Positions 20,636-32,256 of a DNA stretch of 64,000 nt are shown piece by piece. Made by a program: the position numbers and the translations under genes. Location: assembly GCA_019187105.1 (NCBI GenBank), contig JABAQM010000001.1, positions 2,820,734-2,884,733 on the forward strand. Reading direction: 5' to 3'. Source of the DNA: Fimbriimonadaceae bacterium. Lineage in GTDB: Bacteria; Armatimonadota; Fimbriimonadia; Fimbriimonadales; Fimbriimonadaceae. Every line of letters starts with the position of its first letter. The first letter of the stretch is position 1. The notes under the pieces were generated by a model, which worked only from the letters and a program-made list of their open reading frames with translations, had not been told where the DNA came from and did no database searches.

Positions 20636-21472
20636 ATGAAATTTAACTGTAGTGTCGCGTTGTTCCTTGCTGCATCGGTGGCGTCATTTGCCCAAACCAA
20701 CGATTTCATTGGCGTCGAATTCGATAGCGGCGACTTCTTCTGGGTCAATTCGTCCGATGGTGCCAAGACGCTTCGTGGCAACACCGGCCTCGCTGGGATC
20801 GGTGCCTTGGAGACCGCTGCGAACGGCGACGTCTATGCCATCTCCGGCTATGAGACCAATAGCCTGCAGCTCAACAAAATCGATCCCTTGAATGGCTCGG
20901 CCACGATGATTGGCAACCTCGGCTTGACGGGACTGGTTGAGGGCGCCTTGGTCATCACGCCCGGAGGAACCGCATACACGGTCAACCATCCCGCCTCTAC
21001 CGGCTACAACCTCTGTAGCATAAACCTCGTCACCGGCCAGGCCACGGTCGTAGCTTTCATGGGAAACCACGAGATCAACGGCCTCATGTGGCGTAATGAC
21101 GACATGTTGGTTGGCTTGGACCGCACCACCAATGCGCTAGTCCAGATCAATCCCGCAACCGGACAGGTGTTGGAAATCACGACTTACAACTTCGGTCTGG
21201 GTTCCGTCGGCGGCATGGCCGGCAACCCTCTGGGCAACGGCGGTGTCTTCGCAACTGGGAGGGCAGGCGGCAGCGACACTCTGTATTCTTTTAATGCCTA
21301 TACCGGTCAGTTTTCCGTACGCGGGCCCCTGGATTCGGCGCCGGTCGGCCTTGGCGGACTTGCCCGGAACCCCGTACCGGAACCAGCGACCTGTCTAGCC
21401 GTTGGTCTGGGTTTGGCCGCCTTCGCCGGACGACGTCGAAAGCGATGCGCTAACGGCTCGGCTTGCCAATAG
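20636..21472 (+). CDS. PEP-CTERM exported protein, beta-propeller-like
   Basis: A 278-residue protein. ATG 20636 begins a clear signal peptide (MKFNCSVALFLAASVASFAQ) and has GGAGGA about 11 bp upstream; a farther upstream ATG lacks this. The C-terminus carries the PEP-CTERM sorting signal: VPEPAT, a hydrophobic helix, then GRRRKR, followed by eight extra residues. Repeating segments such as LRGNTGLAGIGALETAANGDVYAI and MIGNLGLTGLVEGALVITPGG suggest a beta-propeller. PEP-CTERM proteins are processed by exosortase and often linked to extracellular matrix; no exosortase is in the window. Confidence 0.8.
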   Translation: MKFNCSVALFLAASVASFAQTNDFIGVEFDSGDFFWVNSSDGAKTLRGNTGLAGIGALETAANGDVYAISGYETNSLQLNKIDPLNGSATMIGNLGLTGLVEGALVITPGGTAYTVNHPASTGYNLCSINLVTGQATVVAFMGNHEINGLMWRNDDMLVGLDRTTNALVQINPATGQVLEITTYNFGLGSVGGMAGNPLGNGGVFATGRAGGSDTLYSFNAYTGQFSVRGPLDSAPVGLGGLARNPVPEPATCLAVGLGLAAFAGRRRKRCANGSACQ

Positions 21473-29329: not shown

Positions 29330-29358
29330 TTGACATGGCCTGAACCGTGTTGTATAGT
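29330..29358 (+). promoter_or_regulatory. near-consensus sigma70 promoter
   Basis: TTGACA (29330-29335), exactly 17 bp, then TATAGT (29353-29358): 11 of 12 consensus bases at ideal spacing. It points to the secreted protein at 29651 and implies a leader of about 285 nt. Confidence 0.75.
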
Positions 29359-29364
29359 AGAGGC

Positions 29365-29650
29365 ACATAGCGTCTGGCATCTTGATGTTCGGCGGTGGTT
29401 CCCGCTAGGTCGGCAGGAGCGACTTTCGTAGCGAGTTGTCATTCTCAATTGATCTTTTTTGATTCAATTTAGGAAAGGTACAGCAAGCAACGCACCGTTT
29501 ATCGAGAGGTCGAAGCAATTCGTCCAAGCCATCACGCTATCTCTGGGTTTGCGCCCGGAAGCAAAAGTCGCAAACCGGTGTCGGCGGAGACCGCACGTGC
29601 CGGCAACCACAAGTTCATATTGGGCTTTGGTAAGGAGATTAAGTTAGGCT
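29365..29650 (+). promoter_or_regulatory. long structured 5' leader of the secreted protein
   Basis: The stretch between the strong promoter and ATG 29651 has no gene. It holds a perfect 8-bp hairpin, GGTTTGCG with CGCAAACC around a 15-base loop (29546-29576), then a GC-rich stretch, and AAGGAG at 29632-29637 about 13 bp before the start. It could be a stabilising leader or a regulator; I could not fit it to the c-di-GMP riboswitch consensus. Confidence 0.5.
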
Positions 29651-30979
29651 ATGAATAAGACTATGATGATGATGGCGCTCGTCGCCGTCGTTGGCGCTGC
29701 ATATGCAGATAAGCCAGAACTGAAGACGACGTATGCCGGCAAGGAACTCAAGCCGATCCGCTGGGCCAAGGTAGATGCCAGTGGCAAGCAGATCTCGCCG
29801 TGGTACTACGCCAGCAACAACGAAGGCATCGCCGCCGCCCCGCCTCCTGCATGGGACACCTTCGAGAACGATGGTTCCGCTTGGGACGGCCCTCCGGGCG
29901 ACCGCTACGGCGCTGACCCCAACACCTATCGCTGGTACTTCGGTTCGGGCTATCACAACCCGTACATCGCCAGCGACATGCGACAGTTGAACCCCGGCAC
30001 CGAGGGTGGCGTTGCTCCGTATGCTCAGACCTCTTGGTACTGGGAAACGACCGAGCAGTGCTATATGCTGATCAGCACCTACGGCGCTTTCGGTTACACG
30101 TCGGTTCCTGCTCTCGATGGCTTCATCGGCGGCTGGATCTTCGACTTTGGCATCCTCGATGCAACGACCGGCGGCTACTACTACGCTAACTTTGATGGCG
30201 TGACCGGTGGCTATGACTGGACGATGCCGTCGAACAACGACGGTGGCTTCGAGCTTGCTTACGGCAACGCGTTCGACGGCACGACGTTCACGCTCGCTTC
30301 GCTCTGCCAGCCGATGCTGTGGGGCACCGAGGGTACCAACCCGTCGGTCAACGATGCGCTGCAGTATGACGACGACAATCCCACCGATGGCACGCACGTC
30401 GACGCTGAGCGATACGACTACACCTTCGGTGTTGCTCCGGATCCGCTTGGTATCAGCCACGGCTTCTACGTAAGCGACAGCGGCCCGATCACCGAGGTTC
30501 TCGCTCCGACGAGCTACACCGTTGGACCGCAGGGTACGGAAGAGGGCGCCAACGACGTCACCAAGGTTACGACCAGCGACGACGTCCGAGCCGTTGCCTT
30601 CAACACCACCGTTGCGAACAGCAGCATTCCTTCGATCCGCTTCACCTTCTTCTTCACCTCGCCGGTTACCACCGACATCACTGAGTTGAAGGCTTCGGTC
30701 GAAATGCAGTCGCAGTTCGGTCAACACGAGCGACGCGTCGAGTTCGTGAACGCTTCGAACAACAACTCGTTCATTCAGGTCGCCCTCGACGTGGAGACCA
30801 CTCCGAACGTCGACAAGACTCTGACTGGTTCGCTCACCGATGCGGGTCAGATCTCGTCGGTCGTCGCTCTCGACGGAACCGTCAAGACCACCGCTCGCGG
30901 CCGAAAGGTTGGCGTTATGCCGGCCCAGAAGCACCGACTCCGAGTCGACATGGCTCAGCTGTCGGTCACGCACAACTAA
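29651..30979 (+). CDS. abundant secreted protein of unknown function
   Basis: A 442-residue protein with a signal peptide (MNKTMMMMALVAVVGAAYAD, cleavage near residue 19). The mature part is rich in Asp, Tyr, Gly, Thr and aromatic clusters (TYRWYFGSGYHNPY, TSWYWETTEQCYM, GGYYYANFDG) and looks all-beta. Codon choice is strongly biased toward C-ending codons, and a near-consensus promoter and a good terminator frame the gene, so high expression is likely. It lacks a PEP-CTERM, LPXTG or TonB signal and ends LSVTHN. A surface-layer or matrix role is a guess. I do not recognise a family. Confidence 0.7.
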   Translation: MNKTMMMMALVAVVGAAYADKPELKTTYAGKELKPIRWAKVDASGKQISPWYYASNNEGIAAAPPPAWDTFENDGSAWDGPPGDRYGADPNTYRWYFGSGYHNPYIASDMRQLNPGTEGGVAPYAQTSWYWETTEQCYMLISTYGAFGYTSVPALDGFIGGWIFDFGILDATTGGYYYANFDGVTGGYDWTMPSNNDGGFELAYGNAFDGTTFTLASLCQPMLWGTEGTNPSVNDALQYDDDNPTDGTHVDAERYDYTFGVAPDPLGISHGFYVSDSGPITEVLAPTSYTVGPQGTEEGANDVTKVTTSDDVRAVAFNTTVANSSIPSIRFTFFFTSPVTTDITELKASVEMQSQFGQHERRVEFVNASNNNSFIQVALDVETTPNVDKTLTGSLTDAGQISSVVALDGTVKTTARGRKVGVMPAQKHRLRVDMAQLSVTHN

Positions 30980-31002: not shown

Positions 31003-31029
31003 CAAACCCCTGGCTCCGGCCAGGGGTTT
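31003..31029 (+). terminator. terminator after the secreted protein
   Basis: AACCCCTGGC pairs with GCCAGGGGTT around a 4-base loop, followed by TTCTC; it sits about 25 bp after the stop. Confidence 0.75.
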
Positions 31030-31062: not shown

Positions 31063-31452
31063 GTGATCACCGATGCGGGAACCTCGTGGTGCCAAGTTCG
31101 CGACATGCCAGGGGCGGTTGCCTTCTATCGAAACGTGCTGGGTCTCAAGTGCCTGTTCGAGAGCACCCATTGGACCGAGTTCGAAATGGGACAAGGGAAG
31201 TTCGCCCTTCACCTAGCGCTAACGGATGGCGTGGGACCACTCGGAGAAGTTGGCAAGGGCTGGATGTTTGGACTGGTTACGGATAACATCCGGGCTCTGG
31301 AAGGCCGTGTGCGCGAATCGGGCGTCGGCACCGTCCACGACTACCACCAGATCCCCTCGGGCGTGACCCTTACGATAGCCGACCCAGACGGAAACCCACT
31401 TCAGCTGATCCAGCTCGGCACCACGATGGCAGATCTCGGATTACCGGGTTGA
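31063..31452 (+). CDS. VOC-family (glyoxalase/bleomycin-resistance fold) protein
   Basis: A 129-residue protein with the vicinal-oxygen-chelate fold: WCQVRDMPGAVAFYRNVLGLKC at the N-terminus, HWTEFEMGQGKFALHL in the middle and the C-terminal TIADPDGNPLQLIQ. Metal-ligand candidates are H36, H50 region residues and the Glu/Gln of PLQLIQ. The start is GTG 31063. The substrate cannot be inferred. It overlaps by 12 bp the end of the convergent pseudopilin-like gene. Confidence 0.75.
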   Translation: MITDAGTSWCQVRDMPGAVAFYRNVLGLKCLFESTHWTEFEMGQGKFALHLALTDGVGPLGEVGKGWMFGLVTDNIRALEGRVRESGVGTVHDYHQIPSGVTLTIADPDGNPLQLIQLGTTMADLGLPG

Positions 31453-32256
31453 CCAAATGCCCGAAAGCTCATCGCCGATGCGCGCGACGCGTGCGGTGCT
31501 CGGACCCAGGGTTTCGACGTGGCCATCCACAAACAGGTAGTGAATCCCGTTGGGATGGCGCGAGTCGTTCGCCTTGGAAAACACGCCTTTGGCAGAGTTT
31601 CGGTAGGCAAGGCGCGTAACGAACTGGGTCTTCATCGTGTGACGCAGGTTGCTGTCGTCGTATCCAATGAGAAATCCATCGACGGGAACCGCATTGCCGC
31701 CCGGATCGACGAAGGGCATCGGATCATAGGAAGACTCGGCGCCAAAGTTAGAGGTCTCGCTGATCAGGACCGACTGGTTGATGGATGGAATCAGCGATAG
31801 CTGGCGAGTCGCCATCGAGACATACATACCGTATGCCGAGCTCAGTGACTTGCTCCGAGAGTCCGAATGCTGGTTGCGAACGAGCTCAGCGTCGGTTGCG
31901 GAGGGGCATCTGAAGCTCGCGCGCGGCGACATCCCGGGCTGGACGAGTGACACCCATGTATACGGCCGGCCGTTCTCGTCAAGGGTTGGTGTCGTATCGC
32001 CTTCGGCGATGGTGGAGTAGATAGGTGGTAGGCGATCGCTCCAACTCGCTGCATACAGCTGGATCGCCTTGCTGATCGAGACCATGTTTTGCTGGCACAG
32101 GTGCTTCTCACTCTGCCGCTTGAAGACCATGTAGATCGGAATAAGCGCGAGCACAAGCACCGCCATTACAATTAGAAGGCGGACGAGGTCCTTCTTGGAG
32201 ACGTACTCTGAACGTGCTGAACCTTCCGGTTCATCTGGCGCGAAGGGGTCCGACAA
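31441..32256 (-). CDS. pseudopilin-like protein with H-X9-DG motif
   Basis: A 271-residue protein with one N-terminal helix (about 25-45) preceded by an acidic cytosolic segment. After the helix comes KHLCQQNMVSISKAIQLYAASW, which resembles the post-helix region of type II secretion pseudopilins (cysteine then NLKQ-like helix). Near the end is HPNGIHYLFVDG, an exact H-X9-DG motif, which marks a large prepilin-related family in Planctomycetes and Armatimonadota. The usual prepilin-peptidase site before the helix is absent, so it may be a membrane-anchored relative. It is 6 bp downstream of the LCP gene. Confidence 0.65.
   Translation of the reverse strand: MSDPFAPDEPEGSARSEYVSKKDLVRLLIVMAVLVLALIPIYMVFKRQSEKHLCQQNMVSISKAIQLYAASWSDRLPPIYSTIAEGDTTPTLDENGRPYTWVSLVQPGMSPRASFRCPSATDAELVRNQHSDSRSKSLSSAYGMYVSMATRQLSLIPSINQSVLISETSNFGAESSYDPMPFVDPGGNAVPVDGFLIGYDDSNLRHTMKTQFVTRLAYRNSAKGVFSKANDSRHPNGIHYLFVDGHVETLGPSTARVARIGDELSGIWSTR

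Follow-up and report, generated by a model that had tools for sequence, protein, structure and literature searches.

A new C-terminal domain family of exported proteins in Armatimonadota, proposed as a surface retention or sorting module

A 442-residue protein that a preliminary description of this DNA could not place is built from two modules, an N-domain and a C-terminal tail domain; a further 36 proteins encoded in this genome finish with the same tail. The tail represents a genuine, new domain family in a little-studied lineage, and it came to light through one of its carriers. We propose, with a probability of about one half, that it is a module for retention or sorting at the C-terminus and would tether diverse cargo to one surface ligand.

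Results

Organisation of the window gene

The open reading frame at 29651-30979 (+) encodes 442 amino acids (hereafter the window protein; the window is the whole 64-kb stretch of DNA analysed). Its signal-peptide-like start, MNKTMMMMALVAVVGAAYA, supports the earlier suggestion that the protein is exported. The features of the gene are:

29330..29358, +, sigma-70-type promoter, 11/12 consensus positions, spacing 17 (motif search with shuffle control)
29365..29650, +, leader, start inferred from the promoter; holds the Shine-Dalgarno sequence AAGGAG at 29632-29637
29546..29576, +, perfect hairpin of 8 bp with a 15-nt loop, not above chance
29651..29707, +, signal-peptide-like N-terminus of 19 residues, cleavage site placed by eye (sequence; crude hydrophobicity measure)
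29708..30478, +, N-domain, residues 20-276 (relatives in the phylum)
30479..30976, +, C-terminal tail domain, residues 277-442, predicted jelly roll (profile and model)
31004..31029, +, intrinsic terminator-like hairpin of 11 pairs followed by a T-rich tail (stem length and place)

The protein had been called Asp/Tyr-rich. In the part that follows the signal, Asp makes up 7.8% and Tyr 5.4% of the residues, and Thr (10.6%) and Gly (10.2%) outnumber either. Searches of Pfam, NCBIfam and PDB with the full window protein returned nothing significant (PDB best E 0.52).

The tail domain and its distribution

The possibility that the window protein is an orphan was rejected, because a protein search of its own genome gave nine further places. 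The ten places comprised the protein itself, one full-length paralogue (35% identity) and eight others, whose partial matches were confined to residues 244-442 of the window protein (29-78% identity). Profile A1 was made from an alignment of the ten own-genome tails and profile A2 from an alignment of 43 tails; in the own genome A1 found 19 places at E <= 1 and A2 found 39, and 37 of the latter were examined as complete proteins. The window protein matched the tail profile over residues 276-441 of 442 (E 2e-43); the window protein is itself part of this profile, but its sequence used as sole query was enough to find the nine further places. The domain is approximately 166 residues long in the window protein, where it had no significant Pfam, NCBIfam or PDB match. 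Near-invariant Asp residues are present at D310, D388 and D433 of the window protein (91, 91 and 95% of members, respectively); H428 and L437 stand where Trp is commonest, and the usual aromatic positions are not kept. No description of the tail was found among the open-access literature titles searched.

At E <= 1e-3 the tail was present in 91 of 291 Armatimonadota genomes (71 of the 194 good ones); copy numbers across the phylum are lower bounds, with at most 12 candidates scored per genome. All 14 tail loci in GTDB contigs were titled Armatimonadetes, Fimbriimonadaceae or Fimbriimonadales, and the tail of one of these loci has the same sequence as a tail in G038, a genome from the order to which the window's belongs. 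A tblastn search with one family member, a method that detects close relatives only, returned nothing in plasmids or phages. The subfamily of the window tail (GPQG type) was represented by ten strong A1 matches among 41 genomes, all of them in the own genome, the other A1 matches reaching at most 44.5 bits; A1 was built from those ten own sequences, and none of the 40 relative genomes belongs to the same genus. The A1 scan gave no relative in GTDB contigs, a collection that may lack records of the own genome and of its closest kin. The ten GPQG-type tails formed one clade on a long stem (100/100, in a bootstrap that had not settled).

Position of the tail and nature of the cargo

The tail was found at the extreme end of its carriers. 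Of the 37 own proteins, 22 have no residue between the tail and the stop codon, eight have 1, three have 2, and single proteins have 4, 5, 10 and 28, so that the tail ends at most 5 residues from the stop in 35 of 37. The A1 scan added 34 further sequences, all ending at most 6 residues from the stop codon, and a further partial match (L056, E 0.006) located 286 residues before the protein end. A signal-like hydrophobic start was detected in 35/37 own carriers by a crude measure that is free to choose among start codons.

A Pfam family over cut-off was recognised in 16 of the 31 carriers scanned, and these families were of nine kinds: subtilase (4 carriers), glucose/sorbosone dehydrogenase (3) and FG-GAP (3); RCC1, BNR, sortilin-type propeller, laminin-G with Ig-like domains, NHL and LVIVD were found in one carrier each. 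No glycoside-hydrolase Pfam family exceeded its cut-off in the 31 scanned carriers. Three consecutive tail-domain genes lie on the same strand at C1:2469143-2476012 (L154 and L157), and their bodies are RCC1 repeats, an unplaced body and BNR repeats.

Exchange with other C-terminal modules

Two adjacent tandem paralogues of the own genome, 57% identical over 286 residues, differ in their ends: one terminates in a PEP-CTERM segment (L012; PF07589, 31.3 bits, cut-off 20.7) and the other in the tail. PEP-CTERM matches that exceed the cut-off number 51 in the own genome, and the window protein has no PF07589 match (maximum E 0.1). Within the window, a PEP-CTERM over cut-off ends a 319-residue frame at 21371-21439 (+), corresponding to C1:2842104-2842172. 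PEP-CTERM was also present in 81 of the 91 tail-bearing genomes (two lists compared by eye), so the two modules may serve different ends. Tail-bearing genomes without a PEP-CTERM match at E 1e-3 exist in one genus (G110, G121, G123, G124 and G126, 98-100% complete), and the f22 genomes G193, G194, G196, G199 and G200 (55-92% complete) carry the tail and stand outside the 230 genomes with PEP-CTERM, indicating that the tail does not depend on PEP-CTERM.

Of the 291 genomes of the phylum, 21 contain relatives of the N-domain; the own genome is one of these and holds one paralogue (41%). The tail closes eleven N-domain proteins (E 2e-43 to 3e-5), which come from eight genomes of family f1, the window's among them; a contig end cuts one of these proteins, and in another the frame passes the tail through an N stretch. 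The tail was weakly matched in one f5 relative (E 0.12). Thirteen relatives end instead in short paired repeats (nine in f2, four in f1) that are dockerin-like by eye; Pfam Dockerin_1 matched 2 of 6 repeat-ended relatives, both below cut-off. The repeat carriers include L189, L191, L194, L196 and L199, among others, in f2, and L190, L193, L204 and L207 in f1. The remaining N-domain frames are fragments or their end is not visible.

Modularity and copying of tail DNA

Bodies and tails were compared in the 666 pairs of own carriers. Bodies were similar in 29 pairs, tails in 199 and both in 16, and 21 pairs had tails at least 40% identical with bodies lacking similarity. The window tail itself shows 75% and 80% identity with tails carried on two unrelated bodies. 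In the tandem subtilases L150 and L180 (C1:3238360-3242215) the bodies are 54% identical and the tails have no detectable similarity.

Copying of tail DNA between loci was shown at the level of sequence. In 4 of 8 chosen pairs, tail DNA was 91-93% identical, compared to 45-58% in the bodies; these are L148/L149 and three non-independent pairs among L172, L173 and L174, located about half a megabase or more apart. Four-fold degenerate sites differed at 11/60, 15/56, 13/53 and 12/54 positions in the tails of the four pairs and at 37/50, 57/72, 46/81 and 51/66 in the bodies (Fisher p 4e-9, 4e-9, 3e-4 and 2e-9, respectively). As four-fold sites contrast between tails and bodies, protein-level selection alone cannot explain the identity of the tails. 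Identity dropped to background just after the stop codon in all four pairs, and rose approximately 30 nt or less from the domain start in three of them and approximately 180 nt earlier in L172/L174. The tandem pair in L177 showed no contrast (48/79 vs. 27/42, p 0.84). The window tail differs from its two nearest relatives at 42/63 and 29/55 four-fold sites, indicating that it is not a recent copy.

Predicted fold and nearest named family

Structure prediction, a check proposed beforehand, was run on the window tail and gave a jelly roll (pLDDT 85.7, pTM 0.85). AlphaFold2 applied to another family member with a 14-row alignment reached pLDDT 92.6 and pTM 0.87. Both models are confidently predicted jelly-roll sandwiches like those of carbohydrate-binding modules; the window tail model shares the jelly roll with these modules, and the fold is not specific to them. 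For both models the top solved match was 9eui_D, a domain from a baseplate protein of Staphylococcus phage phi812, with Z 13.7 across 143 residues (2.8 Å) in one case and Z 12.1 across 149 residues (3.2 Å) in the other. Among the matches listed, many carbohydrate-binding modules came next (Z 9-11), and the others included the meprin MAM domain, PAPP-A, Cry toxin domains and IFT25, as well as BcsB, indole-alkaloid cyclases and Eph receptors. The models suggest that the tail may hold a glycan; since non-sugar binders have the same fold, the fold does not prove sugar binding.

PF14741 (GH114_assoc) is the nearest named family by sequence, and is likely a distant relation. It matched 9 of 43 tail members at E <= 1, and the eight matches seen singly shared one register (tail minus profile position 21 to 27). 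L059 alone passed the PF14741 cut-off (23.1 vs. 22 bits). The window protein and its tail had no PF14741 match, and the own genome gave 8 weak matches with 0 over cut-off. PF14741 was not named in the literature searched.

Signs of expression of the window gene

The preliminary description had listed several signs of very high expression, most of which were borne out. The near-consensus promoter is present as TTGACA-17-TATAGT and is the sole such site in the window (shuffles predict 0.03). The 3.3-Mb genome holds 9 sites of 11/12 with 17-nt spacing, the window promoter included, compared to 0 for the reversed-pattern control. Its score of 11.3 was the highest among the upstream regions of the 37 tail-domain genes (37 stretches, two of them shorter than 450 nt), and the maximum in 185 single-base shuffles was 10.3. 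A strong promoter common to all tail-domain genes was rejected, as the next scores (10.3 and 10.2) fall inside the shuffled range.

The leader, put earlier at about 285 nt, measures 286 nt from the start inferred from the promoter. The perfect 8-bp hairpin reported in it exists and is no better than chance: 37 of 500 shuffled leaders hold one too, and it is therefore given no weight. There was no Rfam match at gathering scores anywhere in the window, and at E 0.1 the leader resembled none of the 36 sequences upstream of the remaining tail-domain genes. A role of the leader as regulatory RNA was rejected on these three grounds. Behind the gene, the 11-pair hairpin with its T-rich tail agrees with the terminator described before; this call rests on stem length and place, because the number of terminator-like sites in the region (3) is near expectation (2.2). 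Downstream, a gene on the opposite strand (window 31441-32256, -) encodes a protein with a single N-terminal hydrophobic stretch and the end HPNGIHYLFVDGHVETLG, by which it presumably resembles prepilin-type H-X9-DG proteins.

The codons of the window gene are biased, as had been noted, with an effective number of 34.2. This is the lowest value among the 37 tail-domain genes, and the window gene is the most codon-biased carrier of the domain by this measure; it is also the lowest of the 10 window genes measured (36.0-54.0 in the other nine). Codon adaptation to rpoC-fragment codons was 0.72, a value exceeded by one of the 36 other tail genes (0.73) and one of nine neighbours (0.74). Promoter score and codon bias point to high expression, and the window protein is possibly a main surface or matrix protein.

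Discussion

A retention or sorting device is in our opinion the best reading of the tail, because the domain lies at the extreme end, is carried by varied exported cargo, swaps with a sorting tag and has been copied from gene to gene. The window gene would encode an exported protein in which an N-domain restricted to the lineage is joined to a tail of general use in retention or sorting. After export, the folded tail would bind a ligand common to the carriers, most probably a polysaccharide belonging to the envelope or matrix of the cell itself, and this binding would prevent proteases, propeller enzymes and coat-like proteins from leaving the surface. The window protein, whose gene ranks first among the carriers in promoter score and codon bias, would be plentiful at the surface or in the matrix and held there by its tail.

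The jelly roll would also suit an ordinary carbohydrate-binding module, one directing secreted enzymes or adhesins to external glycans, such as food polymers or the surfaces of algae or plants, and not to the own surface; the fold is nearest to CBM4, CBM15, CBM22, CBM61 and other modules among the listed solved structures, and there is a weak match to a glycosyl-hydrolase-associated domain. We nevertheless doubt this explanation, given the lack of glycoside-hydrolase Pfam families over cut-off in all 31 scanned carriers and the exchange of the tail with PEP-CTERM; to our knowledge, ordinary carbohydrate-binding modules are not bound to the extreme C-terminus. We also consider it rather unlikely that the tail is a folded secretion signal read, and perhaps cut or joined to lipid or sugar, by an outer-membrane machine like that of type IX secretion. 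Its extreme C-terminal place on diverse cargo agrees with such a signal, as does its presence at the position where a known sorting tag stands in a paralogue, but no machine was identified; a SprA_N search gave no match, although control genomes gave none either. That the tail merely caps or stabilises exported proteins, or acts as a spacer with no sorting or binding function, seems highly improbable. Widely differing bodies carry it and its three near-invariant Asp could be structural, for example as a metal site; however, a cap or spacer leaves unexplained both the exchange with PEP-CTERM and dockerin-like ends and the copying between genes.

If the retention or sorting reading is right, Fimbriimonadales (Armatimonadota) may, more tentatively, possess an undescribed surface-sorting system independent of PEP-CTERM/exosortase, in which a DNA-copied folded C-terminal module and one envelope partner would fix dozens of proteins. 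We know of no described surface-protein sorting route in this little-cultured phylum. One module marking 37 proteins of one genome provides a ready list of candidate surface proteins and a possible handle for surface display, and constitutes a case of a C-terminal module copied between genes while the cargo diverges.

The tail can be compared with several known systems. The Pfam name of GH114_assoc puts that domain N-terminal to glycoside hydrolase 114, whereas the tail domain is C-terminal on other cargo. CBM4-2, CBM15 and CBM22 share the predicted jelly roll (Z 9-11 over 130-138 residues) but carbohydrate-binding modules are only approximately 5-15% identical to the tail, which has no Pfam CBM match. 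The phi812 baseplate domain is the best structural match, yet identity is 10-12% and tblastn gave no phage record. Type IX secretion C-terminal domains are likewise folded domains at the C-terminus of many cargoes, but the tail had no matching family in the Pfam or NCBIfam scans. In an excerpt of one published report, a metagenomic xylanase carries a type IX sorting domain (PMC8857248). The PEP-CTERM/exosortase tag (PF07589) resembles the tail as a C-terminal module on many exported proteins and occupies the same slot in tandem paralogues; it consists, however, of 24 positions with a hydrophobic segment, whereas the tail is predicted to be a folded domain of approximately 160 residues.
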